Assembly: GCA_011049425.1 (NCBI GenBank)
Contig: DSBM01000107.1
Span: forward strand, 1-59,070
Reading direction: 5' to 3'
Length of the DNA: 59,070 nucleotides
Origin: Candidatus Aminicenantes bacterium
GTDB lineage: Bacteria; Acidobacteriota; Aminicenantia; UBA2199
Below, in pieces: positions 1,576 through 53,804 of the stretch. A program made the position numbers and the translations under genes. Below the pieces are notes generated by a model. The model worked only from the letters and a program-made list of their open reading frames with translations. It was not told the DNA's origin and did no database searches. Every line of letters starts with the position of its first letter. Position 1 is the stretch's first letter.

Positions 1576-3936
1576 TTATTGGGTGTGAAGGGTTTTGATT
1601 ATGTTTAACACTTCCTGTGCACTTTGATATCGTTCTTCGCGTTTCTTGGCCATGCATTTTTCAACCACCTCTTCCAGGCGGTCGGGGGTATCGGGCCGCA
1701 ACTGCCGCATGGATGGGACGCCTTCGAAAAGGTGCTGATAGAAAACATTTTCGCCCTTAAAGGGCACTCGACCGGTGATCAGGTGAAACACGGTGGCCCC
1801 GACTGAGTAGATGTCGGTGCGGTGGTCGGTGGGCTGTCCCTGAATCTGTTCAGGAGACATGTAGTAGGGGGTTCCGGTAATAATGCCGCTTTCACCCTTT
1901 TTCATATCGCCGCGGATCACGGCCAGTCCGAAATCCATGATCTTGATCTCTTTCTGACGGGTGATCATGATGTTGTGGGGCTTGATGTCGCGGTGGATAA
2001 TGCCCTTGCGGTGCGAATAATCCAGGGCTTTGAGGACCTTGATGGTGATATACAACACCTGGGGAATAGAGAATTGGCGGTTGTTGCGAATCAGGGACAT
2101 GAAGTTTTCACCTTCAATGAACTCCATGGAAATAAAATGATCGTCTCCCAGTTGTCCCACGTCATAGACAGTGACGATATTGGAATGGGAAAGAGAGGCC
2201 GTAGAGCGGGCTTCCGTGTAGAACCGTTCCAAGCTGCGCTTGTCCTTGATCAGGCTGGCATTCAGGACCTTGAGTGCCACAATGCGTTGCAGAACCGTGT
2301 CTTCGGCTTTGTACACGGTTCCCATGCCGCCTTCACCCACTTTGCGGATAATTCGATACCGCTGGGAGGAATCCTCTTGTACCAGGGCCATCTCTTTGTA
2401 TTTCTGGATCAGGTTTTCTACGTCTTTGAGCCGCTGGTGGACATCTTTGTAGGAGTAATTCTCGCTGAGGACCATCTGGTAGATGGAGTGGGCTTTCTTG
2501 AAATCACCGGCATTTTCTTCCGCCTGTCCCAACAGGTAATACCAGTCGATGTTTTTGGGCGAGATGGTTTGGTCGGCAAGCAACTTGCCGAGTTTTTCAA
2601 TCACCAGTTGGTGCTTGCGATGTTTCAGGAAAATGGTCGCCATCTGGGTGATGGAGGCCAAGTAATCCGGTGAGTTGGGGTGAACCTGCTGGAAGTTTGC
2701 CAGGGCGCGTTTCTCATCGTCCACTTTGAGGAAAGATCCCCCCGCCTTAAAATATTCCCCGGCTTTTTCAAAGAGTTCTCCGGCTTTCTGGAAGCGTTTG
2801 TATTTCAAATAGATGTCCGCGGCGGGCTTCCACTGATGTGCCATTTCGAACATCTTGGCCGCTTCCTCTTCCTTTTCCGCTTTCAGGTAATTTTCCGCAG
2901 CGGCCGCAAAATTCTGGTTCATGAAATAGCAATATGCGGCTTTCTCAAAACTACGATCCCATTCAAACAGCTCCGCGGCCCGGGTGTAATCTTCTCCCTT
3001 CAGGTACCATTCCGCGGCTTCCCGGGTATTTCCCCGGGCAAAGGAATCCTCTCCCCGTAGCTGGTACGCCACGCGGTGCTGACCTAGTTTTTCGTACAGG
3101 TCGGCCGCGCGTATGGGCATCTGGGCTTTCTCGTACAATTTGGCGGCTTCTTCAATCCGCTCCATCTTTTGCGCCAGTTCAGCGGCTTTGTCGAACTTGT
3201 CCTGCTGCACCAGCAAGTTAAATGCCCGTTCGTTTTCTCCCACCCGGGTATACAGTTCCACCGCCTTCATGAGGTCCTGTTCCAGGCGCGAATCCTTATG
3301 GAAACCTCCGCTTGTGTCCGCGTTGGAGAGGAACCATTTCTCGAAGTTTATGGCCGCACGTTTCAGGTTGCCGTCTTTTTCGTAAATATAGGCCGCTTTT
3401 TTAAAAAAACCTTTGCGTTCATAGATTTGGGCGGCTTTCTCAAACCGTTCATAGTTGTAATAAATCTCAGCAGCTTCCTGAAAGCGGTTGTTGGATTCCA
3501 ACAGGGAACAGGCCGCTTCGATGTTGCGGCGTTTCAGGTACAAGCGGATAATGCCGTCGAGGTGGCCGATCCGCTTGTAAATTTCAATGGCCTGGGTTTC
3601 GCGGTTCAGGCGTTCGTTTAATTCCCCCATTTCGGTAAACAGCTGTCCGTCTTCATATGTTTTCAGCGCTTTGCGAAAATCTCCAATCTCTTCGTAGATT
3701 TTTCCGGCTTTAAGGAAATTGCCTTCTTTTGCGGTCTTTCTTGCCTGGGAAACGAGGTAGTATCTGCGAAAAAGCATGGAATAGAGGGCATCAAAAAAGG
3801 ACTTGTCTTGCACATTGAGGATTTTTGCGATCTTTAGAAGTTCATAGACGAGTTTTAGCGCTACCACCACAGCGATCAGGATCAGGACGAGTTTGATCTC
3901 TCGGTGGTTCTTTATTGTGTCCAGTATTGCGTCCAT
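1576..3936 (-). CDS. Membrane-anchored TPR protein with C-terminal Ser/Thr kinase
   Basis: A 786-residue protein with an inverted architecture. A single N-terminal membrane helix (about residues 15-31) is followed by about 450 residues of TPR-like helical repeats (recurring A-x-x-YEK pairs) and a C-terminal protein kinase domain from about 530. The kinase has GEGGMGTVY (glycine loop), VALKVL (ATP lysine), HRDIKPHN (catalytic loop), DFGLAV (magnesium) and GTPYYMSPEQ, so it should be active and cytoplasmic. The ATG at 3936 is preferred over the upstream TTG at 3975 because a TTGATT-17-TATACT promoter (3954-3982) lies between them. The targets of the kinase are unknown. It is divergent from the Clp/LpxC operon across about 235 bp. 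Confidence 0.9.
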   Translation of the reverse strand: MDAILDTIKNHREIKLVLILIAVVVALKLVYELLKIAKILNVQDKSFFDALYSMLFRRYYLVSQARKTAKEGNFLKAGKIYEEIGDFRKALKTYEDGQLFTEMGELNERLNRETQAIEIYKRIGHLDGIIRLYLKRRNIEAACSLLESNNRFQEAAEIYYNYERFEKAAQIYERKGFFKKAAYIYEKDGNLKRAAINFEKWFLSNADTSGGFHKDSRLEQDLMKAVELYTRVGENERAFNLLVQQDKFDKAAELAQKMERIEEAAKLYEKAQMPIRAADLYEKLGQHRVAYQLRGEDSFARGNTREAAEWYLKGEDYTRAAELFEWDRSFEKAAYCYFMNQNFAAAAENYLKAEKEEEAAKMFEMAHQWKPAADIYLKYKRFQKAGELFEKAGEYFKAGGSFLKVDDEKRALANFQQVHPNSPDYLASITQMATIFLKHRKHQLVIEKLGKLLADQTISPKNIDWYYLLGQAEENAGDFKKAHSIYQMVLSENYSYKDVHQRLKDVENLIQKYKEMALVQEDSSQRYRIIRKVGEGGMGTVYKAEDTVLQRIVALKVLNASLIKDKRSLERFYTEARSTASLSHSNIVTVYDVGQLGDDHFISMEFIEGENFMSLIRNNRQFSIPQVLYITIKVLKALDYSHRKGIIHRDIKPHNIMITRQKEIKIMDFGLAVIRGDMKKGESGIITGTPYYMSPEQIQGQPTDHRTDIYSVGATVFHLITGRVPFKGENVFYQHLFEGVPSMRQLRPDTPDRLEEVVEKCMAKKREERYQSAQEVLNIIKTLHTQ

Positions 3937-3953
3937 GCCGGCCTGGGCTGAAA

Positions 3954-3982
3954 AGTATAGCAAAGGCCCAATCAAAAATCAA
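3954..3982 (-). promoter_or_regulatory. Promoter of the kinase-TPR gene
   Basis: -35 TTGATT (3982-3977), 17-bp spacer, -10 TATACT (3959-3954). The expected start site leaves only about 10 nt before the ATG at 3936 and no ribosome-binding site is visible. Confidence 0.6.
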
Positions 3983-4040: not shown

Positions 4041-4171
4041 TCTGCGCCGCTATCTTTGATGAGTGCGGGAAACAGGATGGAACAGCCATGTTCCCGTAGC
4101 CGGGGACTTTACCTCCGTTGCGGCTGCGCAAACGTCGTGGCCGGCAGGTATTCGGGACAGCGGGAAAGACG

Positions 4172-7120
4172 ATGACGCTTCAAGTCAGTCAACTGAAAAA
4201 CACCAACGAATTCCGCCAGGTGTTTTTCCCGGATCTGAAACTGGATGATCGCACCCTGAACTGGGAGACCACCGAGGAGTTGCTCCAATATGATATCCAC
4301 ATGCTGGATGCCCTGATCCGGGCGGAGAGCCTGCATAAACTCAAGCATTACGCGGTGAAAGAAGGCGTGGCCCTTTTTGATCCGGACCCGGTATCCGCGT
4401 TGGCCAGAATTCGCAAATATCTGGCCCGGTTCGATTCCAAGTTGTTTCTGTTTGGTCGCTCGGAACGCCAGACTTTTGGGTTTGTGCTGGAGAATCTGGG
4501 CGAATATCTCTATCGGCGAGACAGGGTCGGCAGTGACCGTGAGCGGCAGCAATTATTCCGTGACTACCGTTTCTGGGCGGAAAACTTTTTTACCATTCTG
4601 GATCAGAAGCTGACGGGCATGATTGTCCAGGTGGATGATGAAGAGGAGATCGAGACCGAAAGGCCATACCTGCGCTTTGAAAGTGATGCCATCCGCATTC
4701 CCCTCTATCCCTTTGTGCTGATACGGGATCAACGCCGCCTGTTTCTGGAACGGATGATTCCCGGGGGATTGGAATACCTGGATATCACGGAGGGCCATCA
4801 CCGCCGGTTTACCCGCAAAGATCTGGATATCCCCGTGTTTACCTACCTGTGTTCGCTCCTGGATATCGAGAGTGCCCGCCTGGTGGCGTCGCGGTTGACT
4901 CCCGGGGACCACGAACTGACGGATAAACTTGATCTGCTGGAGCGGGCAATCAGCCTGTATGCAGACCGGGCTTTTCCCACCTGCCTGGAAATTCTTGAGC
5001 GTTTGTCACCGGAACGCATGCACTACCCGCTCCTGGTGCTGATGAAAGCGCGCTGTCATCTTGCCTTAAAACAATTCGCCGAGATGCGGCACCTGCTACA
5101 GAAGTTCGTGCTGTTTTTTCCCTTTTATGCCGATACCTTTGAGTTAATGGGGGACGCATCGCGCCTGGAAGGAAAGTTCGAACGGGCGGTTGGTTTCTAC
5201 GAAAAGTTTCTGCGTCTTTCCCATTCAAACAGTGTGACCGAAAAGGTGAAAGCCGTTCGGGAACGCATGAAAACGGAGCAGCCGAAGGAACCCCGTCCGG
5301 ATGAACCGTTCCTGGAGATCAGTCCGTCGAGCGAGACGGCGTTGCCCGATTTGGTGGGGCGTGAGCGGGAAATCCGCCAGATGATGGAGATCCTGATTTC
5401 CGGCAGCCGCTCCAATATCCTGCTGGTGGGAGAGAGCGGAGTCGGTCGCAGCGCCCTGATCTCGGCATTATCCCGCCGCATGGTTGATGGTGATGTCCCG
5501 GGCATGATAGAAGCCCGGGGGATGCGGGAGATCAATTTTCTGCACCTGTTGGCCGGCGCAAAGTATCGGGGCCAGTTCGAGGAAAAGGCGCTGAAGTTGC
5601 TCAACGATTTCTCTCGCTGCAACGACATCCTGGTACTCGAGGATATCCATTTAATGATGTCTCCGGGCGGAGCTCGGGGGACTTCACTGGATCTGGTCAA
5701 CATTCTCAAGCCATTCCTGCGCGACGGTTCTATCCAGGTCATCGCCACCACCAATTACGAGGAAATGAAAAACACGGTGGAGAGGGATCATACCTTAATG
5801 GGTTATCTGCAGAGTGTCCAGGTTTCTGAACTCTCCAACAAAGACATACAAATAATTCTGCGCCGCAGAGCGGATGCGGCGGCCCGGGATCTGCGTATCG
5901 ACGTAAAGGACGGCGTTCTTGAAATCGTGGCGGAGAGCGCCGGACGCCACTTGAAGTCCCGGCGTTTGCCCTTGTCCGCGTTGCTTTTGCTGGAACGTTG
6001 TTTCGCCAAGATAAAACTCAAAGTCCATGCCGGATACTCCCGGCGCATGGAGTTGACCGAGGACGACGTCACTGAAGCCCTGGCGGATATACTCAACCTG
6101 CCCCAGAGCCGGCTTTCCGTCTCTATGAACCTCGTGCTCTCCGACCTGCCAAATCGCTTAAGCCGGCAGATTGTTGGCCAGGATAACGCATTGCGGCGAC
6201 TTTCCGCCGTGGTGACCATGAACAAGCTGGACCTGGGAGTGAAATCCCGCAGACCCGACGGCGTGTTTCTTTTCGTGGGTCCCACCGGGGTAGGAAAAAC
6301 TGAGACCGCGCTGGCGTTGGCGCGGGCCCTTTACGGTTCGGAAGATCATCTTATCCGCATTGACATGTCGGAATACATGGAGCGTTTCACCTATTCACGT
6401 TTTGTGGGCGCCGCGCCGGGGTATGTGGGTTACCAGGATACGAACCAACTCACCGACCGGGTACGCCAGAACCCTTTCTCTATTATCCTGTTGGATGAAG
6501 TAGAAAAAGCGGATGCCCAGCTGCTGAATATCTTTTTGCAGGTCTTTGACGCCGGTCGCCTGACGGATGCCCGGGGCAACGTGGTGGATTTTTCCCATAC
6601 CACGTTTATCATGACATCCAACATCGGCACCTCGCTTTTCCAGGCGGAACGCCTGGGTTTCCAGGGGGATTCCTCCGGGCGCGGGGTTTCGCGAGCGGCA
6701 CGGGAGAAAGCGTTGCGGCGTTTCTTTACCCCGGAATTTTTGAACCGTGTGGACGAAATCGTCTATTTCCGCCACCTGGACAAGGCAAACATCCTGCGGA
6801 TTATTGAACTGCAACTGGAACCCGTGCGCCGGCAGTTGCAACGCCAGGGCAAGTGCCTGGTGGTCGAAGACGGTGTGCTGGAAGTTCTTGCCGCCGAAGG
6901 ATATTCCCTGGAGTTTGGTGCCAGGAACCTGACACGGGTGATCCAGAATCGGTTGTTGGAGCCCATCTCCCGGGTGGCACTGGGAGCGGAGTGGGCAAAC
7001 GCCGGCAAGGTGGAATGCGTGTTACAAAAAAATGAGATTGTGGTTAATGTGGGGATAAACGCGGCCGAAGAAGCCGTGGATAAGCATTCCCTGGTTGAGA
7101 AGGAGTCGGTAACAACATGA
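4172..7120 (+). CDS. ClpC/ClpB-like AAA+ unfoldase with novel TPR-containing N-terminus
   Basis: A 982-residue double-AAA+ protein. Residues 1 to about 390 are not a Clp N-domain; they include TPR-like helices around 280-350. D1 has a degenerate Walker A, GESGVGRS near residue 418 (Lys replaced by Arg), a keyed pore loop AGAKYRGQFEE, and an ILVLEDIH Walker B variant. D2 is intact: GPTGVGKT near 703, pore loop GYVGY, ILLDEVEKA, and sensor region MTSNIG. An LGF tripeptide after the MTSN motif sits where ClpC carries its ClpP-docking VGF loop, suggesting it can feed a protease (inference). ATG 4172 is preferred; an in-frame TTG at 4118 is a less likely start. Its TGA overlaps the next gene's ATG, so translation is coupled to the LpxC fusion. 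Confidence 0.88.
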   Translation: MTLQVSQLKNTNEFRQVFFPDLKLDDRTLNWETTEELLQYDIHMLDALIRAESLHKLKHYAVKEGVALFDPDPVSALARIRKYLARFDSKLFLFGRSERQTFGFVLENLGEYLYRRDRVGSDRERQQLFRDYRFWAENFFTILDQKLTGMIVQVDDEEEIETERPYLRFESDAIRIPLYPFVLIRDQRRLFLERMIPGGLEYLDITEGHHRRFTRKDLDIPVFTYLCSLLDIESARLVASRLTPGDHELTDKLDLLERAISLYADRAFPTCLEILERLSPERMHYPLLVLMKARCHLALKQFAEMRHLLQKFVLFFPFYADTFELMGDASRLEGKFERAVGFYEKFLRLSHSNSVTEKVKAVRERMKTEQPKEPRPDEPFLEISPSSETALPDLVGREREIRQMMEILISGSRSNILLVGESGVGRSALISALSRRMVDGDVPGMIEARGMREINFLHLLAGAKYRGQFEEKALKLLNDFSRCNDILVLEDIHLMMSPGGARGTSLDLVNILKPFLRDGSIQVIATTNYEEMKNTVERDHTLMGYLQSVQVSELSNKDIQIILRRRADAAARDLRIDVKDGVLEIVAESAGRHLKSRRLPLSALLLLERCFAKIKLKVHAGYSRRMELTEDDVTEALADILNLPQSRLSVSMNLVLSDLPNRLSRQIVGQDNALRRLSAVVTMNKLDLGVKSRRPDGVFLFVGPTGVGKTETALALARALYGSEDHLIRIDMSEYMERFTYSRFVGAAPGYVGYQDTNQLTDRVRQNPFSIILLDEVEKADAQLLNIFLQVFDAGRLTDARGNVVDFSHTTFIMTSNIGTSLFQAERLGFQGDSSGRGVSRAAREKALRRFFTPEFLNRVDEIVYFRHLDKANILRIIELQLEPVRRQLQRQGKCLVVEDGVLEVLAAEGYSLEFGARNLTRVIQNRLLEPISRVALGAEWANAGKVECVLQKNEIVVNVGINAAEEAVDKHSLVEKESVTT

Positions 7121-8445
7121 AAAAGGTTCTGGTGGTTGATGACGAAAAAAACATCCAGGTTTCCCTGGCGTCCATTCTGGAAGACGAAGGATACCACACT
7201 TTTTTTGCTTCTTCCGGAGAAGAGGCGGTGGAAAAAATCGCCAACATCAATCCGGATGCGGTTCTTCTGGATATCTGGCTGCCCGGCATAGACGGTCTGG
7301 AAACCCTGGACCGCATCCTTACCCTGGATCCATCCCAGATTGTGATCATGATTTCCGGCCACGGCAGTATCACCACCGCCGTGCGTGCGGTGAAAATCGG
7401 GGCCTATGATTTCCTGGAAAAACCCCTGAGTCTGGACAAGGTGATCTTTGTACTCAAACGCGGGCTGGAGCACAAACAGGTTCTGGAAGAAAACATCAAA
7501 CTCAGGTCGATGCTTGAGAAACAATCGGGAAAAGTGGAGCGGGAGCCGGAAGATCCCGGACGCAAGCGTGAAAGTTCAGGTGTGTTGACCTTTGACTATA
7601 CGGATCCGGATGTTTCCCGGCCCCAGCGCACGGTTCGGGAGTCCGGGATTTTTTACGGCATTGGTCTTCATTCCGGGCAAAAAACCGGCATGGTGATCAA
7701 ACCGTTGCCACTGGGCAAGGGCATCCGCTTTGAGAACATCTCGGAAAAGGGGTATGTCCCCGCCAGGGTGGAGTACCTGGATTCAACCAACCATGCCACG
7801 TCGGTAAAAAAGGACCGCCTCGAAGCGCGGACCATCGAACACCTGATGGCCGCCTTGCACGCATTCGGAATCACCAACCTGGCCATCAAGATCAACAAGG
7901 AAGTCCCGATCGGGGATGGATCGGCCTCGGCGTTCTGCGATTTTATTCGCAGCAGCGGTGTGGTGGACCAGGAAGGATTTATTCCCGAAGTCGTGATCGA
8001 CCGGCCCCTGGTGGTTGGAGAGGAATCACCGGAGGGACGCTATATCCGGGTGGATCCCGCAGATCGATTCGAAGTGCACTACACCCTGATCTATCCAAAA
8101 CCCCTGGGGCGGATTTTTCACCACTTTGTTCTCAACAGCCCCGAGAGTTTCGAAAAGGAGATTGCTCCGGCGCGCACGTACGGCTTTGTCCACGAAATGA
8201 ACGAGTTGTCTCAACTGGGACTCGCCGAAGGGGGACGCATGAACAACTTCATCCTTATCGACAAGGGAGAAGTCATCAACACGAAACTCCGTTTTCCCGA
8301 TGAGTTGGCGCGCCACAAAATCCTGGACATCATGGGTGATTTTTATCTGTTGGGGCGGCCCATCCGCGGCCGCATCACGGCCCAGAGAACCGGCCACGCG
8401 GACAACGCCCGTATGGTCAACCTGATCCGCGAAAAGTTCCTGTAA
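7117..8445 (+). CDS. lpxC: Response-regulator receiver fused to LpxC deacetylase
   Basis: A 442-residue fusion. Residues 1-120 form an NtrC-like receiver with Asp8 and Asp9, phospho-acceptor Asp52, Ser80 and Lys102. A linker (120-170) leads to a complete UDP-3-O-acyl-GlcNAc deacetylase (171-442), the committed zinc enzyme of lipid A synthesis. LpxC signatures are GIGLHSG (181-187), TIEHLMAAL with Glu241 and His242, DGSAS (267-271), ARTYGF, RHKILDIMGD with His400 and Asp404, and GHADN with His427. These match the zinc ligands (His79, His238, Asp242), base (Glu78) and His265 of E. coli LpxC, so the enzyme should be active. The normal family length is about 300; the extra N-terminus is the receiver. 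Start overlaps the clp stop (ATGA). Phosphorylation may control activity or stability (inference). Confidence 0.95.
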   Translation: MKKVLVVDDEKNIQVSLASILEDEGYHTFFASSGEEAVEKIANINPDAVLLDIWLPGIDGLETLDRILTLDPSQIVIMISGHGSITTAVRAVKIGAYDFLEKPLSLDKVIFVLKRGLEHKQVLEENIKLRSMLEKQSGKVEREPEDPGRKRESSGVLTFDYTDPDVSRPQRTVRESGIFYGIGLHSGQKTGMVIKPLPLGKGIRFENISEKGYVPARVEYLDSTNHATSVKKDRLEARTIEHLMAALHAFGITNLAIKINKEVPIGDGSASAFCDFIRSSGVVDQEGFIPEVVIDRPLVVGEESPEGRYIRVDPADRFEVHYTLIYPKPLGRIFHHFVLNSPESFEKEIAPARTYGFVHEMNELSQLGLAEGGRMNNFILIDKGEVINTKLRFPDELARHKILDIMGDFYLLGRPIRGRITAQRTGHADNARMVNLIREKFL

Positions 8446-15556: not shown

Positions 15557-15994
15557 ATGTTTAAAGCTGAAGCGGATCTGATTGCCACCATCCCATCCAG
15601 CACGGAACTGCTGAAAATGGTGGTGGAGTTGACCCGGCATGTGGTCGGAATCCTTGAGTTCCCCGACAAGGAAGTCCAACAGATCGCTTTGGCTGTTGAC
15701 GAGGCAATCACCAATGTGATCAAACACTCTTACCGCTATGAGAAGGGCCGGGATATCCGCATCGAGTTTTTTACCGCGCAGGCCGGGTTGAAGATCCGCA
15801 TCATCTATGCCGGCATTGCCCCCGAGCTGGATCCGGCGACGGTGAGCGTTGAGCGGCTGATCAAACAGAAACGCAAGGGCGGATTGGGCGTTCAGCTGAT
15901 GCGCAAAATCATGGACTCCGTGGAATACTCTACCAGCAACGGACTTAACATCTGTGAAATGATCAAATGGAAGAAGCGGGAAACGGTCGGCTGA
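15557..15994 (+). CDS. RsbW/SpoIIAB-like anti-sigma serine kinase
   Basis: A 145-residue GHKL-ATPase. The N-box is DEAITNVIKHSY and the G-box is KGGLGVQLMRKIMDSVEY. The family phosphorylates its STAS partner and sequesters a sigma factor or another target. ATG 15557 is taken as start; an in-frame TTG at 15548 lies inside the STAS gene. It overlaps the phosphatase gene by 28 nt. No matching sigma factor is encoded next to it, so the output of the switch lies elsewhere or is not a sigma factor. Confidence 0.9.
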   Translation: MFKAEADLIATIPSSTELLKMVVELTRHVVGILEFPDKEVQQIALAVDEAITNVIKHSYRYEKGRDIRIEFFTAQAGLKIRIIYAGIAPELDPATVSVERLIKQKRKGGLGVQLMRKIMDSVEYSTSNGLNICEMIKWKKRETVG

Positions 15995-17217
15995 TCCGCG
16001 AGCTCAAGCTCAAGCGCCTGCAATTCAATTCCATATCGGAGTTCTCTTCCACCCTCTATTCCTCTTTTGATATCGACCATATTATCAGGGTCTTTTTCTC
16101 TACCATCATGGGCCAGCTGGGGGTTTCTCGTATTTTTCTTTACGATCGGGAGAACGACATATTCCGCAAGCGCGGTTTTTCCTTATCCGGAGAGAAAGAA
16201 GCCCCATTCGCTATCGGGTTGAATGGATTAAAACTGAAAAAAGAAGTTCAGCGGGTAGAGGAGTTGCCGGAGAAAACAGCGGTCCGGGAAAAACTGCTGA
16301 AATTCCGGATTCATTACCTGATTCGGGTTGAGTCTGGAGGGGAAACCGTGGTCATGGGTTTGGGTTTGCGTTTCAATCGCCATGACCTCGGCAGCGAAGA
16401 CCTGGACCTGGCTGCTTTTGTCGCCCGCTTTGCCATGATTGCCGTCAACAACACCATCATGGTCAACCGCATCATAGAAAGCCAGCGTATTGAGCACGAG
16501 ATCGGTATCGCACGCGATATCCAGCATTCCCTGCTGCCACAAGAGATCCCCCCGCTGGAAAATTTTGACCTTTGTGTTGAGTACCGCCCCATTCACGAAG
16601 TGGGAGGGGATTACTACGATATCCTGCGACGACGCCGGGACGGTTGCCCCATCCTGATCGCCGACGTTGAAGGCAAGGGGTTGCCGGCGGCTTTGCTGGC
16701 CGCGTCTTCACAAGCGGTTTTTCACGTGGTAAACGACCTTTTTCTTTCGTCTTCTTCGCGGTTTATGGCCAAAGCCAATTCGCTGATCTGTGATTTCACC
16801 CATTGCAACCGTTTCATTACCGTGTTCTGGATGTTGGTGGACGGTGCGCGTCGCCGGGTAACCTATGTCAATGCCGGTCATGAACCACCTTTCCGGGTTG
16901 ATGCCCGGGGCCGCGTTCACCACCTGTCATGCGGCGGATTTCTGGCCGGATTCATGCCGGACGCTGAATACGAACAGGAAGAGCTGGAGATGCAGCCGGG
17001 TGAAGTGATCGTTGCGTTTACGGACGGTGTGGTTGAAGTTGAAGACGCGGCCGGCAACGAATTCGGCCGCAAACGCTTGGAAGAGCTCACGGCCGCCAAT
17101 CGCACGCTCTGCGCCCGGGATTTGACTGATCGTATCCTTGCCGAAATAGACGTTTTTGCCGGCGGTTGTGCCTACCGGGACGATTTCACCCTGCTTGTGC
17201 TCAAAGCGCACGAATAA
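15967..17217 (+). CDS. GAF-containing SpoIIE/RsbU-type PP2C phosphatase
   Basis: A 416-residue protein. Residues about 15-160 form a GAF-like sensor, a short helical linker (about 165-185) follows, and the rest is a PPM/SpoIIE phosphatase. Metal and core motifs are GGDYYDI, ADVEGKGLPAAL, NAGHEPPF, FTDGVVEVEDA and YRDDFTLLVL, all intact. It should dephosphorylate the STAS protein encoded two genes upstream in response to an unknown signal. It is cytoplasmic, with no membrane segment. An 8-bp minisatellite starts 13 nt after its stop. Confidence 0.93.
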   Translation: MEEAGNGRLIRELKLKRLQFNSISEFSSTLYSSFDIDHIIRVFFSTIMGQLGVSRIFLYDRENDIFRKRGFSLSGEKEAPFAIGLNGLKLKKEVQRVEELPEKTAVREKLLKFRIHYLIRVESGGETVVMGLGLRFNRHDLGSEDLDLAAFVARFAMIAVNNTIMVNRIIESQRIEHEIGIARDIQHSLLPQEIPPLENFDLCVEYRPIHEVGGDYYDILRRRRDGCPILIADVEGKGLPAALLAASSQAVFHVVNDLFLSSSSRFMAKANSLICDFTHCNRFITVFWMLVDGARRRVTYVNAGHEPPFRVDARGRVHHLSCGGFLAGFMPDAEYEQEELEMQPGEVIVAFTDGVVEVEDAAGNEFGRKRLEELTAANRTLCARDLTDRILAEIDVFAGGCAYRDDFTLLVLKAHE

Positions 17218-32971: not shown

Positions 32972-33074
32972 TTTTCCTTTTGGAAAGGGCCCCTCCTGTT
33001 CAGCCGCCCCAAGTCGCCTGGTGTCGCATTTCACTCCCGACAGTTTTTCACATGAGGGTTTACCATGGCCCGAC

Positions 33075-33103
33075 TTGACTCATGGCCGGCTCCTATCTAT
33101 AAT
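33075..33103 (+). promoter_or_regulatory. Promoter of the Ser/Thr kinase gene
   Basis: TTGACT (33075-33080), 17-bp spacer, TATAAT (33098-33103). It lies inside the longest possible open frame (from ATG 33065), which argues for the downstream ATG at 33161 as the true start. Confidence 0.6.
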
Positions 33104-33160
33104 AGAAACTCTTTTAGCGAAAGCCCTTACGGTAACCGATTCAACAAACAATTTGTCGGC

Positions 33161-35971
33161 ATGAAGCGTAGCCAGGATGACTCTCAATCCGTCCTTACCG
33201 GGCGTACCCATGCAGAAGACCATGAATTTGTATCCCTGCCGGCCGGCACGCGCATCACCAAGCGTTATCGGGTGGTGCGCTTTCTGGGGAAGGGCGGGTT
33301 TGCCACCGTGTATGAGGCGGTTGATGAGATTCTGAATGAAAAAGTGGCGCTCAAGGTATTTCACCAGGGCGTTAACCTTGATCGCAACAGCATGCTGCGC
33401 ATCAAGCGTGAGATCAGCCTTTCACGGCGCATTGCCGACCCCCGGGTGGTCAAGGTTTTCTCTCTGGACCGCTGGCTGGACCGCTGGTTCCTGGTTATGG
33501 AGCTGGTTGAAGGCGAGACCCTGAAACAACGCCTGGACCGTGAGGGAGCCGGGTCATGGCAGGCGTTCCAGCCGGTTTTCCTGGAAATCCTGGCCGGGAT
33601 CTCGGCCTTGCATGCCCTTCACTTTGTTCACCGGGACATCAAGCCCTCCAACATCATGCTGGTTCAAGGCGGGGGAGTCAAGATCCTGGATTTCGGATTG
33701 GCCAAGGACTTGGGTGACCCGGAACGAAGTTTCAATTTGAATGAAGTGGTTGGAACTCCCCGCTATCTTTCTCCGGAGCAGCTCCAGGGTGTGGAAGTGG
33801 GTGTTCGCTCCGATGTGTTCCAGTTGGGTTTGTTGCTGCAGACGGTACTGCGTGGTTCTTCGCCCCTGGAGGGCATGGACACGCTTTCCGTTCTGGCCCA
33901 CCGCATGGGCAGAACTCCGGTCGCGCTGAGATTGGAGGGACTGCGGGTTCCCACGCAGGTAAGGCTGGGACTGGAGCGATCTTTGCGCAGGTTGCCCGGG
34001 GGCAGATTCCGCGACGCCGCGGCCATGCATGCCTATTTCTCTTCTTCCCGGGTCGGTCGCCGCGTGATTTGTACCTGGTTGCGCAAATTGGCTCCCGGTG
34101 CGGCCTTGTTGCTCATGCTGGGAGTCGCGGCCGGAGCCTTGTTCTGGACTTCGCGTGAGCCCGCCATTCCCGCCCGGGTGCGAATCGAGGGCAATCTCCT
34201 GAAACTGCTGGATGAGCGGGGCGCAATCATGTGGGCCAAGGATTTCAGCCCCCGTTCGATTTACCGGGCCGTGCTGCAGCCATGCCGCCCGCCCTTGCAA
34301 TTGTTTCGCAGCAATCATGCCATCCATCACCTGGTAACCGTGTTTTTTTCCGCGGAAGCCGGAATGGATCAGGACAGCCAACCCACTTTGGGAAGCACCG
34401 AGAGTGATGCGCGCATGATGCAGATTGATACCGCGGGCAATGTGATACTGGACCGTCCGCTATCTGTCTTTATTCGGGCCGGTGATTACGGTTTTATTCC
34501 CCGGAGTTACATCGAGGAGTTCCAGACCCGGGACCTGGACGGAGACGGTTCAGTCGAAACCATTGCGCGCGTGATTCACGCCAGGGGCATGTTTCCCTCC
34601 GCATTTTTGTTCTTGACCAACGGCCGGTTGGTTTGGATAAATTCTCCCGGCCATATCGGCAAATGGACCGCTGTGCCGGAAGAAAACCACAGATGGCGCT
34701 TCTTTTTTTCCGGCAGGGCGAACCGCATGGGGCATCTTGATTTCGTTGCCCGTATTGTCTTTGACTTTGGTAAAGATTCGCGTGGAGGACATATCGGGCT
34801 GATTCCCCATTTAAACGAGGACAAAATAGAAATCGCGCATCAACTAAACCTGCTTGCGTATTTTCCCCAGGGTTTCCTGTACGAAGACGAAGGTTCAATG
34901 CCGCATCAGGGGCCGATCGAAATGGTCAATCGTTCAGGTGTCCGATTGCGCATTGAAGAGGACGGTACCATGCGGTTGGGAACAGGTGTTGAAGCGCAAG
35001 TGTTTGTGGACCCGCCGGAAAGGTTGCGGCATGTGTACACAGAGATCCAGAAAGCCCGGATCGCCTGCGACCTTCATTCTCAAATGGAAGAAGCGGCCGC
35101 ACGCCTGGAACGCGCCGCTGAGTCGGGTGTTGAAAATCCCTGGTTGCAATCGGTTATTGCGCTTTACAGAGGAGACGTGGAAGTGCGCCGCGGGCGGTAC
35201 GCCAGCGGGCGGCGCCTGTTGCGCCGTGCCCTGGGCCTGTATCCGCAAAGCAATGATGCGGTCCTGCGACTGCTGGAAACCGCCTTTCTTGAAAAAGGTC
35301 CGGAAGAGGCATTGCACCTGATCGAGGCGGAATTTCGAAAATTTGACCGGTTCTGGGGACTGACCAGGGGGAGGGATTTCTTTAAAGCTCTGTGCCTGCT
35401 GCAGAAGGGAGACTTTGAGTCCGCTCGGCTGTTTTCCCAGCGCATGCAACAGGACGAGCCCCGAAACGCCGCATTGCTGCGTTCACTGACCGGGCTCATG
35501 TGCGGCGATGCCATTGTCGCGGACCTTCCCCGCGACAACGGGAATATGTCTCTGCTCTATACCTGGGAGGAATACCGCCTGCTGGAGGGCCGGGCCCATT
35601 TGCTGGCCGGAGACGGATCCGGTCGGGGCGAGTTCTGTTTCCATGATGTAAATGCCTATTCACGAGTACGGCGGCATCTGGCCGCCATGTCCCTGGCCTG
35701 GTACACGCTGAAAGACAATCGCAGGCACGAGGCGGAGCGCATGGCCAGTGAAGCGTTCACGGACCTCGAGAAACGAATCCGGGGTGATATGGAAGCCCGT
35801 TTCTGGTGGTTTTACGACGCCTGGGTGTATGGACGCGTCATGGATGAACTGGGTCGGCGCGAGGAAGCCCGCAGGGGCTACGAAGCCTGCATTGCCGCCA
35901 ATCCCCATACGGCCCTGGCCGCCGCGGCCCGGCAACGCCTGGCCGGCTTACAGGTAGCCCAGGGTTTTTAA
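33161..35971 (+). CDS. Transmembrane Ser/Thr protein kinase with sensor and TPR regions
   Basis: A 936-residue receptor-type kinase. The cytoplasmic kinase domain (about residues 35-280) has GKGGFATVYEA, VALKVF, HRDIKPSNIML, DFGLAK and GTPRYLSPEQ, so it looks active. A membrane helix (about 308-328) follows. The outer part contains DLDGDGSVE, a calcium-type FG-GAP/VCBS signature, in a beta-rich region (about 335-640), then about 270 residues of TPR-like helices. Ligand and targets are unknown. Start 33161 is preferred because of the internal promoter. Its 3' end overlaps the convergent sulfatase gene by 24 nt. Confidence 0.9.
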   Translation: MKRSQDDSQSVLTGRTHAEDHEFVSLPAGTRITKRYRVVRFLGKGGFATVYEAVDEILNEKVALKVFHQGVNLDRNSMLRIKREISLSRRIADPRVVKVFSLDRWLDRWFLVMELVEGETLKQRLDREGAGSWQAFQPVFLEILAGISALHALHFVHRDIKPSNIMLVQGGGVKILDFGLAKDLGDPERSFNLNEVVGTPRYLSPEQLQGVEVGVRSDVFQLGLLLQTVLRGSSPLEGMDTLSVLAHRMGRTPVALRLEGLRVPTQVRLGLERSLRRLPGGRFRDAAAMHAYFSSSRVGRRVICTWLRKLAPGAALLLMLGVAAGALFWTSREPAIPARVRIEGNLLKLLDERGAIMWAKDFSPRSIYRAVLQPCRPPLQLFRSNHAIHHLVTVFFSAEAGMDQDSQPTLGSTESDARMMQIDTAGNVILDRPLSVFIRAGDYGFIPRSYIEEFQTRDLDGDGSVETIARVIHARGMFPSAFLFLTNGRLVWINSPGHIGKWTAVPEENHRWRFFFSGRANRMGHLDFVARIVFDFGKDSRGGHIGLIPHLNEDKIEIAHQLNLLAYFPQGFLYEDEGSMPHQGPIEMVNRSGVRLRIEEDGTMRLGTGVEAQVFVDPPERLRHVYTEIQKARIACDLHSQMEEAAARLERAAESGVENPWLQSVIALYRGDVEVRRGRYASGRRLLRRALGLYPQSNDAVLRLLETAFLEKGPEEALHLIEAEFRKFDRFWGLTRGRDFFKALCLLQKGDFESARLFSQRMQQDEPRNAALLRSLTGLMCGDAIVADLPRDNGNMSLLYTWEEYRLLEGRAHLLAGDGSGRGEFCFHDVNAYSRVRRHLAAMSLAWYTLKDNRRHEAERMASEAFTDLEKRIRGDMEARFWWFYDAWVYGRVMDELGRREEARRGYEACIAANPHTALAAAARQRLAGLQVAQGF

Positions 35972-37902: not shown

Positions 37903-40266
37903 TCAGAATCCCTGGTACTCGGTGCGTTGGATGATTTCATCCTGAAGGTCGCGGCCGAGATTGTTGAAATAGTCGCTGTAACCGGCCACACGCACGATGA
38001 GATCGCGGTGCTTTTCCGGTTCCCTTTGCGCCTCGCGCAGGGTATTCGCGTCCACCACGTTGAACTGGACGTGATGTCCTCCCAGGCGGAAATAGGCGCG
38101 TACCAGGTAGAGAACCTTTTCCAGGCTCTCGGGGTTCTGCATCAGGTCCGGGGAAAACTTCTGGTTCAGAAGGGTGCCGCCGGTGCGCTGGTGATCGATG
38201 CGTGCGGCTGAACGGAGCACCGCGGTAGGTCCGTTTCGATCGGCACCCTGCACGGGTGAAATGCCTTCGGAAAGGGGTGTTCCGGCCCGGCGTCCATCGG
38301 CGGTGGCCCCGGTTATGCTGCCGAAGTAGACGTGCGAAGTGGTGGGCAGCAGGTTGATGCGATGAACCCCGCCTCGGGAGTTGGGGCGGCCGTCGACCGC
38401 CGCAAAAAAGATTTCAAACACTCTGGTTGCCAGCCCGTCGGCTGCGTCGTCATCGTTGCCCCAGCGCGGGGTTTGGTCTCGCAGGCGCTGGCGCCAGTGT
38501 TCGTGGTCCTCGAAGTCACGCTCCAGCATGCAGGTCAATTCTTCGAGGGTGACGGCGCCGGTCTCGAATACGTGGCGACGGATCGCGGACAGGGAATCCG
38601 TGATGGAGCCCAGGCCCACGCCCTGGATATAGGAAGTGTTGTAGCGCGCGCCCCCGCTGTGATAGTCGCGGCCGCGGGTTACGCAATCCTCGATGACCAG
38701 CGATAGAAACGGCGCCGGCATGTTGCGCGCATAGAGTTGTTCAATCAGGTTGTTCCCCTGGATTTTCAGGTCTGCAAAGAAAGCCACCTGGCGGGAGAAA
38801 GCCTGTATCAACTGCTTGAAATCACTGAAATCGCCGGCTTTTCCCGTCCGCGGCCCGAGTTGGATCCCCGTGCGCGGATCCCTGCCGTTATGCAGGGTCA
38901 GTTCAAGGATCTTGGGAAGGTTGAAATAACCCGTCAGGAAATAGGCTTCTCTGCCGAAAGCGCCGGACTCGACGCAGCCGCTGGCGCCGCCTTCGCGGGC
39001 GTCTTCCAGGCTTTTTCCCTGGCGCAACAGTTCAGAGATAATGGTCTCGGTGTTGAACATGGAGGGCTGGCCGAAACCGGTGGCCACGATCTTCAGGGCC
39101 CGGCGCACAAATCGATCCGGGTTCTTGCAACTGATCTGCACCATGGAGCTGGGCTGCAGGATGCGCATTTCCTCGATTACGTCCAAGATCATGTAGGTCA
39201 ATTCATTGACCCCGTCTTTTCCATCCCGTGTCAGCCCTCCCAGGTTGATCAAACAGAAATCGGTATAGGTGTTGCTTTCCTGGGCGGTAACCCCGACTTT
39301 GGGCGGGGCGGGCTGGTTGTTGAACTTGATCCAGAAGGCGCACAGCAACTCTCTGGCGCGCTCCGGGGTCAAGCGCTTTTCCGCCAGGTCGCGGCGGAAA
39401 AAGGGAAGCAGGTGCTGATCCAATCGACCGGGATTAAAGGAATCCCAGGTGTTGAACTCGGTGATCACTCCCAGGTGAACAAACCAGTAGTGTTGCAACG
39501 CTTCCCAGAAAGTTCGTGGCGCCTGTTCCGGAACCCGGGAACAGATGACGGCCATTGTCTGCAATTCCTGGCGGCGCGCCGGATCGCTTTCTTTTTCTGC
39601 CTGCTTTTTTAACAGGTCGGCGTAGCGTTGGCCCAAAGCAATGATTCCCAACGCCGCCTGTTCCATTCCCTGCAGGTTCTCACGGGTCTCCAGGGCGCGC
39701 GGATCGGTGACGAAGTTTAGTTGCTCCAGGTTGGAGCGGATCTCGCCAAGAATATCCAGAAAGCCTTTTTCAAATATGCGGGCGCCACCGGCGGTATGTC
39801 CCGGGGCGCGCTGTTCCTGGAATTCGGTAAAAACGCCGGCTTCATATGCATGGCGCCATTCAGAAGAAAGTTCCTTGAACATGCGTTCGCGCAACGAGCG
39901 CCCCTTCCAGAACGGGATGATCTGTTTCTCGTACACGCGCCGGGTTTCACTATCCACCGTGAACGAGACTTTGGGGCGGGAATGCAGTGTATCAAGGTCT
40001 TGAAGAGAGTGCAGACAGATTTCAGGATAGGTGGGGGTGGCCCGGGGAAACGGACCCCGTTCCCCCACAATCAGTTCCCCCTTGTCCAGAAAAAGGGTTT
40101 TGTTTTCCATGATGTGGCGGAAAGCGGACCCGCGCAGCACCGCGGCCGGCATTGCCGCGTGCATGGGATCGGCGCAAAACTCTGTGAGCAGGCGGGCGCG
40201 TTCCGTAGAAATGCAGGGGTGTGTGCGTTGGCTTTGTCTGCGCAGGCGGCGGATGCGTTCATTCAT
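37903..40266 (-). CDS. hypD: Glycyl radical enzyme, trans-4-hydroxy-L-proline dehydratase type
   Basis: A 787-residue glycyl radical enzyme. The thiyl site is GASGCVESGAFGREAYFLTGY with Cys431 and the base Glu433, and the radical motif is RVAGYSDYFNN with Gly762. Long stretches (NNQPAPPKVGVT, PTTSHVYFGSITGA, TGGTLLNQKF) resemble the hydroxyproline dehydratase group, which converts trans-4-hydroxyproline to pyrroline-5-carboxylate; the exact substrate remains inference. ATG 40266 is chosen because TTGGAGG stands 5 nt before it. It starts 1 nt after the activase stop. Oxygen-sensitive, so expressed without oxygen. Confidence 0.85.
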   Translation of the reverse strand: MNERIRRLRRQSQRTHPCISTERARLLTEFCADPMHAAMPAAVLRGSAFRHIMENKTLFLDKGELIVGERGPFPRATPTYPEICLHSLQDLDTLHSRPKVSFTVDSETRRVYEKQIIPFWKGRSLRERMFKELSSEWRHAYEAGVFTEFQEQRAPGHTAGGARIFEKGFLDILGEIRSNLEQLNFVTDPRALETRENLQGMEQAALGIIALGQRYADLLKKQAEKESDPARRQELQTMAVICSRVPEQAPRTFWEALQHYWFVHLGVITEFNTWDSFNPGRLDQHLLPFFRRDLAEKRLTPERARELLCAFWIKFNNQPAPPKVGVTAQESNTYTDFCLINLGGLTRDGKDGVNELTYMILDVIEEMRILQPSSMVQISCKNPDRFVRRALKIVATGFGQPSMFNTETIISELLRQGKSLEDAREGGASGCVESGAFGREAYFLTGYFNLPKILELTLHNGRDPRTGIQLGPRTGKAGDFSDFKQLIQAFSRQVAFFADLKIQGNNLIEQLYARNMPAPFLSLVIEDCVTRGRDYHSGGARYNTSYIQGVGLGSITDSLSAIRRHVFETGAVTLEELTCMLERDFEDHEHWRQRLRDQTPRWGNDDDAADGLATRVFEIFFAAVDGRPNSRGGVHRINLLPTTSHVYFGSITGATADGRRAGTPLSEGISPVQGADRNGPTAVLRSAARIDHQRTGGTLLNQKFSPDLMQNPESLEKVLYLVRAYFRLGGHHVQFNVVDANTLREAQREPEKHRDLIVRVAGYSDYFNNLGRDLQDEIIQRTEYQGF

Positions 40267-40267
40267 G

Positions 40268-41038
40268 TCAACCTCCAATGCGTACTTGCGGATGTACCTC
40301 TTTCAGCCGATTCGCAAGGGCCAGAACACTCGCTTCGGGCAAACTTGGAACCTCGCGCATGGGATTCCTGATTTGCAGGCGCCGGTACTTGTGGGCTGCC
40401 GCCGGGTGAAAAGGCAGGATGGAGACGCGTTCGATGCGATCCGCCCAGGCGCGCACCCGGTCTCTAAGCGCGCTGAGATTATCGGGCGTGTCCGTGTAGC
40501 CGGGGATCAGGGGAAACCTCAACCACAGGCGGGAACGGCCGGCCATCAATTGCTCCAGGTTGGTAAAGATGTAACGGTCTGTCGCGCCGCAATGGCGAAG
40601 CAGGTCGCGAGAAAAGAAAAACTTGATGTCAAAAAGAACCAAGTCGGCGCGGAGCAAGAGGGGCAGGGCTTTTTGCGGGGGGGCATGTCCGCAGGTGTCC
40701 AGGGCGGTGTGCAGGCTCCTTTCACGGCAATCTGCCAGCAGGGCATCGAGGAAGCGGGGCTGAGAAAGGGGGTCACCCCCCGAGAAGGTCACGCCCCCGC
40801 CGGATTCCTCGAAAAAGACCCGGTCCCTTTCAACCCGGCTGATCAGTTCAGCGGCCGTTAACTGTCGCGCGCCGGGCGGTACGGGCCGGCCGCGACGGAT
40901 AAGGGGCACGGATTCCGGGTTGTGGCACCAGGGGCAATGCAGGGGGCAGCCCTGAAAAAAAGCCGTGGTGCGAATTCCGGGCCCGTCGTGGACGGCAAAG
41001 CGTTTTGTGTCGAAAATCCAACCGGTTATTGAGGGCAT
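40268..41038 (-). CDS. Radical SAM glycyl-radical-enzyme activase
   Basis: A 256-residue PflA-type activase. FAVHDGPGIRTTAFFQG leads into CPLHCPWC (Cys31, Cys35, Cys38), the 4Fe-4S site. GGVTFSGGDPLSQ is the SAM-binding motif. It generates the glycyl radical of the dehydratase encoded just downstream. It lacks the extra ferredoxin-like cysteine insert of many activases and so resembles the short PflA form. ATG 41038 is used because the promoter (41049-41077) covers the upstream in-frame start at 41077. Confidence 0.92.
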   Translation of the reverse strand: MPSITGWIFDTKRFAVHDGPGIRTTAFFQGCPLHCPWCHNPESVPLIRRGRPVPPGARQLTAAELISRVERDRVFFEESGGGVTFSGGDPLSQPRFLDALLADCRERSLHTALDTCGHAPPQKALPLLLRADLVLFDIKFFFSRDLLRHCGATDRYIFTNLEQLMAGRSRLWLRFPLIPGYTDTPDNLSALRDRVRAWADRIERVSILPFHPAAAHKYRRLQIRNPMREVPSLPEASVLALANRLKEVHPQVRIGG

Positions 41039-51224: not shown

Positions 51225-51692
51225 CTATGCGCGGCCCAGTTTGGAGAGGATATTCGAGGTGGAGTTCCGGGTGCGGATGGGAAAGAGCAACAGCCGCCCT
51301 CCCCGCGCTTCGACTTCCCGGTATTCCGATACTTCCCGGGCCGGATAATCTCCGCCCTTGACCAGGACATCCAGCCGGGGCATGGATCGGATCAAATCCC
51401 GGGGAGTATCCTCTGCAAAATGGACTACCCAAGAAACCGGCTTCAGCGCCGCCAGGATCTCCATGCGTTCTTCAAGGGGAAAAACCGGACGGGAAGGCCC
51501 TTTCAGCCGGCGCACCGACTCATCGTCATTGACCCCCACCACCAGGATGTCTCCCTGGCGGCGGGCAAACCAGAGCAATTCGATGTGGCCGCCGTGCAAC
51601 AGGTCAAAAACTCCGTTGGTAAAAACCACCCGCGCCCCGGCGTTCTTCTCTATTCGGCGCGCGAGTTCATCACGGCTTTTCAGGATCTTCAT
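51225..51692 (-). CDS. rfaE2: D-glycero-beta-D-manno-heptose 1-phosphate adenylyltransferase
   Basis: A 155-residue nucleotidyltransferase equal to the C-terminal half of HldE. FTNGVFDLLHGGH is the HxGH-type active site, VNDDESVRRLKGPSRPV follows, and VKGGDY lies near residue 120. It makes ADP-heptose for LPS core assembly. Its start overlaps the end of the wzt gene by 23 nt. The kinase half (RfaE1) is not in this window. Confidence 0.93.
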   Translation of the reverse strand: MKILKSRDELARRIEKNAGARVVFTNGVFDLLHGGHIELLWFARRQGDILVVGVNDDESVRRLKGPSRPVFPLEERMEILAALKPVSWVVHFAEDTPRDLIRSMPRLDVLVKGGDYPAREVSEYREVEARGGRLLLFPIRTRNSTSNILSKLGRA

Positions 51693-52977
51693 TTTCCATC
51701 CGGGGAGTAGAATTCCCGGTTTTCAGCAGAATGTTGTCGCTGAAACTCCACTGGTGGGGAATACGCACCACGCCTACGTCGCGGTGGGTCGATGTCACGC
51801 GGAAGGTGTACTGGAAATGGTGATAGTCAAACGGATATCCGTCACGCTTGTGCACCGCCACATCCAGGAAATAGGTGCCGTTCACGAGATCGATGCGGGG
51901 AATACTCACCCGGACCTTTCCCCGCCCACGAAATGACTTGGATACGAACCGCTCGATCACGGTATTGGTTCCGTAACAGCAGGTGCCTCCGGCATCAAAA
52001 ATGCCGATACCGAATGCAAAATCGGTCTGGGCTTCGGGAGACGTCACCTCGAACACCACTTCGCACCCTTCTCCGGCCTCGTAGATGTATTTTTCACATC
52101 CTTTCGCGTCCAGCATGCGCACATTCGAGATTTCAACCTCTCCCGATCCCCAGCGCTTTTCGATTCCGGCAGTCGGCTCTTCTGCGGCTTCCGTCTCCGC
52201 CTGGTGCCGTTCTTCCGCCTTTTTTTCATCCTTTTTACCGATATATTGCAAGTAGGCGTCCACCACCCGCTTGGGGTAACCGCGCATGCTGATGCGGCCG
52301 TCCTTCAACCAGATCACTTCATCGCTGATCCGCTCCACCGTATCCAGGTCGTGGGAAACAAACACGATGGTCTTGTTTTTGCGACGGAATTCGTTGATCT
52401 TGTCCAGGCACTTGGGTACGAATGAGGCATCGCCCACGGCCAGGACTTCATCGATCAGGAGAATATCCGGATCCACGTGGGTGGCGATGGAAAAGCCAAG
52501 CCTCATGTACATGCCGGAAGAGTAGGTTTTTACCGGGCTGTCGATAAAATCCTCCAGCTCCGCGAACGCCACGATTTCGTCGAACTTCTCCTGGATTTTG
52601 CGCTTGGTCAGGCCCAGGATGATGCCGTTTATAAAGATGTTTTCCCGCCCGGAAATCTCGGGGTGGAATCCCGCCCCCAGTTCAATCAGGGCGGAAATAC
52701 GTCCGCGGGTGATCATCTCCCCCATCGAGGGTTTGCTGATCCCGGACAGGATTTTCAGCAAGGTGCTTTTGCCGGAGCCGTTTTCGCCGATAATGCTGAG
52801 GGTATGGCCGGACGAGACTTCGAAATCGACCCCGCGCAGGGCTTCAAAATGGTCCTGGCTGCGCAATTCCTGCAGCAATGTACGGTTGACCAGGGCGCTC
52901 TTGAGGGTCAGGAACTTGTGGCGGTTGGCATAGCGGCGGTAGAACTTGTGAATGTTGCGGGCCTCGATGGCGTTCAT
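51670..52977 (-). CDS. wzt: Polysaccharide ABC exporter ATP-binding protein with Wzt C-domain
   Basis: A 435-residue Wzt-like protein. The ATPase (residues 1-260) has GENGSGKSTLL (Walker A), YSSGMYMRLGF (signature), ILLIDEVLAVGD (Walker B) and VSHD (H-loop). The C-terminal domain (about 285-425) is a beta-sandwich of the type that reads the terminal residue of O-antigen chains. ATG 52977 immediately follows the wzm stop; the longer open frame to 53358 is not used. It powers export of a polysaccharide across the inner membrane. Confidence 0.93.
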   Translation of the reverse strand: MNAIEARNIHKFYRRYANRHKFLTLKSALVNRTLLQELRSQDHFEALRGVDFEVSSGHTLSIIGENGSGKSTLLKILSGISKPSMGEMITRGRISALIELGAGFHPEISGRENIFINGIILGLTKRKIQEKFDEIVAFAELEDFIDSPVKTYSSGMYMRLGFSIATHVDPDILLIDEVLAVGDASFVPKCLDKINEFRRKNKTIVFVSHDLDTVERISDEVIWLKDGRISMRGYPKRVVDAYLQYIGKKDEKKAEERHQAETEAAEEPTAGIEKRWGSGEVEISNVRMLDAKGCEKYIYEAGEGCEVVFEVTSPEAQTDFAFGIGIFDAGGTCCYGTNTVIERFVSKSFRGRGKVRVSIPRIDLVNGTYFLDVAVHKRDGYPFDYHHFQYTFRVTSTHRDVGVVRIPHQWSFSDNILLKTGNSTPRMENEDPEKP

Positions 52978-52979
52978 GA

Positions 52980-53804
52980 TCAGACCTCTTCCACGAATGT
53001 GTCCCGCAACTTGTCGAACACGGTGTAACCGACCCAGAGCAGTATCAATCCGACCAGCAGTGTTACCGGCAATTTCTTCCAATGGGGCAGCGAACCAAAC
53101 ACAAAGGTATAGTGATAGGCCTCGATGATGTGGGTCATGGGATTGAGCGAGAGCACCATCACCAGGGGTTTGTGTTGCTGGATGGCCGGGATCATGAAGG
53201 GATAGATAATGGGGGTGGCAAAAAACCATAAAGTCAAGAGGTTGGAAAGAATGTCCTTGAGGTCGCGGAAATGCACCGTCAGGGCCGCCACCAGGAAGCT
53301 CATGCCCAGCGTAAAGACCAGTTGGACCAGCACGGCCACGGGCAGAAACAACACCCACCAGGTCAGGGGCATGTCTTTGCCGAAAAACAGGATGAACAGC
53401 ACCAGGATGGGCAGGCCCAAGAGAAAGTGGATCAGGTTGGTAAGCACCGTGGTAATGGGCAATACTTCCAGGGGGAACTTGATTTTCTTGATCAGGTTGC
53501 TGTTGATAAACAACACGTTGGCCGATTCCAGCACCGAGGAGTTGAACCAGATCCAGGGCAGCAGGCCGGTAAAAAGGAAAATCGAGTAGTTCATCCCCGT
53601 AATCATGGTGTTTTCCACCCGGCCGCTGCTGGTGGGCAGAATCACCCCGAACACAATCGAATACACCGCCAGCAGCAATAGCGGGTTGAGAAAACTCCAG
53701 AAAAAACCGAACACCGTGCCCCGGTAGCGCGCTTTCAACTCGCGGCTGACCAGGGTGACGATCAACTGGCGATATTTAGCCAGTTCCCGAATCTTGTTTA
53801 TCAT
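52980..53804 (-). CDS. wzm: Polysaccharide ABC exporter permease
   Basis: A 274-residue ABC-2 type permease with six membrane helices (for example SFLNPLLLLAVYSIVFGVIL and LLVGLILLWVGYTVFDKL) and the N-terminal ELKARYRGTVFGFFWSFLNP motif of O-antigen/teichoic acid exporters. ATG 53804 is taken as start; an in-frame extension to 53984 lies within the methyltransferase gene. It overlaps the trmN6-like gene by 29 nt. Confidence 0.93.
   Translation of the reverse strand: MINKIRELAKYRQLIVTLVSRELKARYRGTVFGFFWSFLNPLLLLAVYSIVFGVILPTSSGRVENTMITGMNYSIFLFTGLLPWIWFNSSVLESANVLFINSNLIKKIKFPLEVLPITTVLTNLIHFLLGLPILVLFILFFGKDMPLTWWVLFLPVAVLVQLVFTLGMSFLVAALTVHFRDLKDILSNLLTLWFFATPIIYPFMIPAIQQHKPLVMVLSLNPMTHIIEAYHYTFVFGSLPHWKKLPVTLLVGLILLWVGYTVFDKLRDTFVEEV

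Follow-up and report, generated by a model that had tools for sequence, protein, structure and literature searches.

The fusion gene and its surroundings

The window analyzed here is a stretch of 59,070 nt from an Aminicenantes genome. At positions 7117..8445 on the forward strand, it carries a gene with an ATG start that encodes a 442-aa protein in which a response-regulator receiver is joined to LpxC. A Shine-Dalgarno-like AAGGAG (7100..7105, +) lies 11 nt before the ATG, and the start of the gene forms an ATGA overlap with the upstream gene (4118..7120, +), which encodes a TPR protein with a ClpA/ClpB-type two-AAA unfoldase. On the other side of the Clp-type gene, divergent to the fusion gene, is a TPR Ser/Thr protein kinase gene (1576..3975, −) that is conserved next to the fusion in many genera of the family to which the window belongs (family f1). 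Further away, the window encodes a SpoIIE-type phosphatase (15967-17217, +), a second Ser/Thr protein kinase (33065-35971, +), a pyruvate formate lyase-like glycyl radical enzyme (37903-40278, −), and an ABC ATPase whose C-terminal domain is of the Wzt type found in O-antigen export (51670-53358, −).

The fusion protein has four parts, all encoded on the forward strand. The first is the receiver (aa 1-119; 7117..7473), which matches PF00072 over aa 4-110 with 96.9 bits (Pfam cut-off 30.2). Its characteristic residues are encoded by the codons at 7138-7140 (D8), 7141-7143 (D9), 7270-7272 (D52), 7276-7278 (W54), 7354-7356 (S80), and 7420-7422 (K102). The second is a long alpha5/linker helix (aa 106-136; 7432..7524), assigned by DSSP in an AlphaFold model and resembling the dimerizing linkers of NtrC/NtrX-type proteins. 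The third is a variable linker (aa 137-165; 7525..7611) of low confidence, with pLDDT <50 at residues 136-147 and 153-156. The fourth is the LpxC catalytic domain (aa 166-442; 7612..8442), which matches PF03331 over aa 170-437 with 254 bits (Pfam cut-off 27) and the lpxC equivalog model TIGR00325 with 207.5 bits, above its cut-off of 187.25. Alignment to Aquifex aeolicus LpxC (2ier) spans aa 170-439 and places the zinc-binding and catalytic residues at codons 7837-7842 (E241/H242), 8176-8178 (T354), 8314-8316 (H400), 8317-8319 (K401), 8326-8328 (D404), 8338-8340 (D408), and 8395-8397 (H427). The AlphaFold model as a whole (mean pLDDT 83, pTM 0.64) has the receiver followed by the long helix and, after a long disordered linker predicted with low confidence, an LpxC fold; it gives no fixed interface between receiver and LpxC. 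Foldseek searches with this model retrieve LpxC structures, with a target-normalized TM score of up to 0.93 (A. aeolicus LpxC, 1yh8).

Two other protein families were considered. The LpxC-FabZ bifunctional model (NF009667) gives 191 bits, below its cut-off of 465, and Pfam detects no FabZ domain in the protein. The full-length NtrX model gives 131.6 bits against a cut-off of 600 and covers aa 1-135 only, the window protein having no AAA+ domain. The sequence-only reading had described a complete receiver fused to a complete LpxC without a DNA-binding domain. The PF00072, PF03331, and TIGR00325 matches bear this out, the residue numbers it gave (D8, D9, D52, S80, and K102; E241, H242, H400, D404, and H427) are all right, and both the AAA+ and the HTH parts of NtrX are gone from the protein. 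An assembly or frame artifact was rejected because the frame is intact in ~23 genomes of the window's family and in many distant genomes.

The assembly to which the window belongs (2.62 Mb, 96% complete) has a single PF03331 match, the fusion. A second, unfused lpxC alongside an inactive fused copy would have spoken against a role for the fusion; no such gene was found in this assembly, and the one LpxC it encodes has all of its catalytic residues. The genome also encodes LpxD, LpxB (split in two, with one piece at the edge of a contig), and LpxK. Their presence makes lipid A synthesis plausible here, with the fusion as its sole detected putative deacetylase.

Distribution, conservation, and origin of the fused protein

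Other receiver-LpxC fusions, which the sequence-only reading had suggested looking for, do exist, and they form one clade spread over at least four phyla. Within family f1, the fused frame is intact in ~23 genomes and represented by fragments in a few, and six genomes give no match. Other families of the class Aminicenantia have an unfused LpxC of ~275-307 aa, or none. A wider genome scan, for which the query was the LpxC part alone with the receiver left out, recovered fused proteins from Deltaproteobacteria/Thermodesulfobacteriota, Nitrospirota, Nitrospinota, and Holophagae with 40-54% identity to the query; in the same scan, unfused LpxC scored about 35-41%. Outside Aminicenantes, no LpxC other than the fusion was found in 16 of the 18 carrier genomes, for which completeness figures are not given. 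Genome G298 has the fusion and a second, partial, weak LpxC match. G286, a Syntrophobacterales chromosome, has two LpxC copies, both of them receiver fusions (L117 and L037) and each preceded by a coiled-coil-like protein. Within f1, G018 has a second, very divergent LpxC (L237:2739-3677) that retains the EH and RHKMLD motifs and adjoins an LpxD-like gene. G006, an f1 genome with no fused LpxC detected, has an unfused LpxC (L236:3466-4368; 28.6% identity) that is unlike f1 LpxC and may be a contaminant or a replacement. A plasmid search returned no record spanning 80% of the fusion protein.

A tree built from 69 LpxC domains places every fused protein in one clade (support 100/99), with f1 as a subclade within it (100/100). 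No unfused protein belongs to the fused clade in this tree, even though the database was scanned with just the LpxC part. Thus, the fused clade appears to have a single origin. The unfused LpxC proteins of other Aminicenantia families are placed outside this clade; since f1 lies inside it, the fused type probably reached f1 by transfer.

Is the receiver still under selection? An alignment of 35 fused proteins from several phyla has D8, D9, D52, S80, K102, E241, H242, H400, D404, and H427 invariant. In a wider set of 31 fused receivers, S80 is replaced by T in two, and D8, D9, D52, and K102 do not vary. Among the 35 proteins, the receiver and LpxC have mean pairwise identities of 56.7% and 56.6%, and the linker 20.8%. 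Among 12 close pairs, omega is 0.01-0.12 for the receiver (where computable), 0.03-0.35 for LpxC, and mostly higher for the linker; in nearly all of these pairs, the receiver value is lower than or similar to that of LpxC. Low omega together with identity equal to that of LpxC led us to reject chance conservation of the receiver. These data also bear on the idea that the receiver is a passive relic of the fusion event, kept for folding only. Given the one apparent origin of the clade, inheritance alone would account for the presence of a receiver. However, inheritance does not sit easily with a domain that is conserved like an essential enzyme, has a low omega and an invariant pocket, and has never been lost in the sampled clade, and we regard the relic explanation as very improbable.

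The linker gives a clue to how the fusion may have arisen. At four loci (L034, L036, L047, and L051), its position is filled by a degenerate NtrX AAA+ region. The order at L034 and L036 is receiver, sigma-54-type AAA+, lid, and then LpxC; their AAA+ region keeps Walker A and is without GAFTGA and the Walker B acids. At L047 and L051, the AAA+ region is more decayed. The L034 protein matches the NtrX model across its entire receiver-AAA+ part, with 267 bits. The simplest reading is an ancestral fusion of NtrX to LpxC, followed by loss of the AAA+ region in most lines.

NtrX character of the receiver and the candidate kinase

The sequence-only reading had called the receiver NtrC-like. The receiver class stands, and the generic label can be refined to NtrX-like. 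The tryptophan of a DIW motif, two residues after the phosphorylatable aspartate, occurs in 31/31 fused receivers, in 5/7 NtrX proteins encoded beside NtrY, and in 0/7 other regulators. The fused receiver is 48-55% identical to the receivers of full-length NtrX from sister families. The receiver tree is poorly resolved, and in it the fused receivers and NtrX do not form one clean clade. A response regulator at L213 was considered as the missing NtrX and rejected, because it is found across the class together with NtrX and has no DIW motif.

Which kinase might act on such a receiver? An NtrY-like kinase gene lies directly upstream of the fusion at L034, L036, L039, and L041; Pfam detects HAMP, PAS, HisKA, and HATPase domains in these kinases, and NtrY_N in two. 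L040 and L044 have ORFs of the same size at this position, known by size alone, and counting these, a kinase is upstream of the fusion at 6 of 18 non-f1 loci. At the other 12, one of which is cut by a contig end, no kinase gene was seen adjoining the fusion, so pairing with NtrY is unproven there. One kinase of the window's genome stands out clearly as an NtrY ortholog, on contig C75 (L181:6989-9160; 31-34% identity over ~615 aa); it scores 321-375 bits against the fusion-adjacent kinases, compared with 115-125 bits for the next-best kinase. In its neighborhood on contig C75, no response regulator adjoins it. NtrY is likewise alone in three other f1 genomes (G004, G015, and G018), and in a fourth (G010) a different regulator lies 2 kb away. 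In seven sister-family genomes, NtrY is followed by full-length NtrX, and two other Acidobacteriota families have the gene order lpxC-ntrY-ntrX with an unfused LpxC. The solitary NtrY also bears on a reversed flow of information, in which LpxC would report substrate or flux to NtrY by altering how readily the receiver accepts or drains phosphate. Some enzymes do double as signaling sensors, and NtrY would then have another output; yet there is no adjacent alternative output for NtrY in most f1 genomes examined, and we give this idea very little credence.

The sister family f4 has neither LpxC (0/8) nor NtrY (0/8) in its eight sampled genomes (G036, G053, G055, G056, G058, G059, G261, and G269), and is possibly a lineage that gave up LPS. 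Three further genomes (G034, G048, and G052) have NtrY with no LpxC found, so either NtrY also serves other functions or their LpxC escaped detection. In genus g6 (L031 and L049), a PilS/PilR-type kinase and regulator lie ~1.5 kb upstream of the fusion. PilS/PilR was set aside as a partner of the fusion because the window's genome has its own pair on another contig.

Proposed control of LpxC and its implications

Taken together, it is fairly likely that NtrY phosphorylates the fused receiver and thereby controls LpxC in cis. The membrane NtrY-family kinase, encoded elsewhere in the window's genome and immediately upstream of the fusion in several relatives, would phosphorylate D52. The resulting state of the receiver would then be relayed along the alpha4-beta5-alpha5 face and the linker helix, by dimerization or docking, and would change the amount of LpxC activity in the cell. 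The LpxC enzyme would have replaced the old NtrX output, the AAA+ and DNA-binding parts. Two-component control of LpxC had been proposed by the sequence-only reading. The comparative evidence favors it: selection on the receiver equals that on the enzyme, the fusion has been retained across phyla since an apparently single origin, NtrY-like kinases adjoin it at several loci, and NtrY is an orphan in the window's genome. Phosphotransfer, receiver-enzyme coupling, and the sign of control are predicted parts of this scheme. The sign is perhaps inhibitory, by analogy with Rhodobacter sphaeroides, in which NtrYX lowers lpxC transcripts (PMC7240162).

There are two other ways in which a functional receiver could serve LpxC. 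First, it could be a tether, with NtrY binding placing LpxC at the inner membrane and phosphorylation itself hardly affecting the enzyme. In favor of this, NtrY (HAMP/PAS, NtrY_N) is a membrane kinase, and the linker is long and flexible. A pure tether would not need the phosphorylation pocket, however, and the whole pocket is invariant, which makes this option quite unlikely. Second, the receiver could set the lifetime of LpxC, with phosphorylation exposing or hiding a degradation signal for an AAA+ protease and the TPR-Clp unfoldase of the window as partner. LpxC of Escherichia coli is controlled by FtsH proteolysis, and RssB is an example of a receiver-type protease adaptor. The Clp-type gene overlaps the fusion gene in the window and adjoins it in several f1 genera, some Clp-type copies have an LGF-like loop in the second AAA (D2), and the fusion protein has no long C-terminal tail, ending just past the LpxC fold. 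On the other hand, the Clp-type gene is absent beside the fusion in four f1 genomes (G003, G009, G010, and G015) and was not seen there at the loci examined outside f1, and the loop varies among copies, being LGF in the window and MGY, LGY, or VGY in relatives. Control of lifetime therefore seems unlikely to us, if less so than tethering. The Clp unfoldase as an obligatory partner is unsupported, since it is missing beside the fusion in several f1 genera, and it is an accessory neighbor only.

How does control of LpxC by NtrY through a fused receiver compare with known systems? The fusion shares with NtrY/NtrX the receiver type (the DIW motif and the alpha1 sequence SLxxxLEDEGY), the linker helix, and a candidate NtrY-like kinase partner. 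NtrX is a DNA-binding transcription regulator, whereas the output of the fusion is LpxC, with the AAA+/HTH parts gone or, at the four loci described above, degenerate. The fusion has all the zinc ligands, the catalytic residues, and the fold of canonical LpxC of the Raetz pathway, but differs in its N-terminal receiver and in forming a separate clade that is 36-40% identical to unfused LpxC; we know of no receiver in the control of E. coli LpxC. In CheB, PleD-type GGDEF proteins, and HD-GYP proteins, a receiver likewise governs an enzyme in cis, but those outputs are signaling enzymes, whereas the fusion has an essential biosynthetic enzyme in this position. Enzyme outputs of receivers are thus already known; an essential biosynthetic one, LpxC included, was not found in the literature searched, and no description of a receiver-LpxC fusion was found in the open-access literature.

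Links between two-component systems and lpxC have been described at the level of transcription. For example, loss of NtrYX in R. sphaeroides raises the lpxC transcript 8.8-fold and LPS ~2-fold; the region upstream of lpxC showed no NtrX site (PMC7240162). According to a 2025 review, the same NtrYX-lpxC link exists in Caulobacter crescentus (PMC12444477). In Desulfovibrio vulgaris, lpxC is the single mapped target of the response regulator DVU2934, and in Syntrophobacter fumaroxidans lpxC is directly upstream of a response-regulator operon (PMC3333781). DVU2934 resembles the fusion in tying a two-component response regulator to lpxC; it differs in acting by transcriptional control of an unfused lpxC, whereas the fusion joins the receiver to the enzyme.

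What would such control mean? First, the fusion bears on how LpxC is controlled outside the FtsH/LapB system of E. coli. Second, a clear direct connection from NtrYX to LPS genes has been lacking despite the association of NtrYX with the envelope; the fusion joins both parts, offering a testable direct link from an envelope sensor to LPS synthesis. Third, the genomes compared here form a series, from separate lpxC-ntrY-ntrX genes, through NtrX-LpxC with a decayed AAA+ region, to the plain receiver-LpxC. Because the fusion is the sole LpxC detected in nearly every carrier genome, the envelope sensor probably controls outer-membrane synthesis directly rather than via a gene regulator. On the comparative evidence, the balance is moderately in favor of the NtrYX envelope-sensing pathway having dropped transcription in several phyla and instead using phosphorylation to act directly on the enzyme that catalyzes the committed step to lipid A. 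If true, this would be a widespread post-translational control of LPS output that is new to the literature searched.
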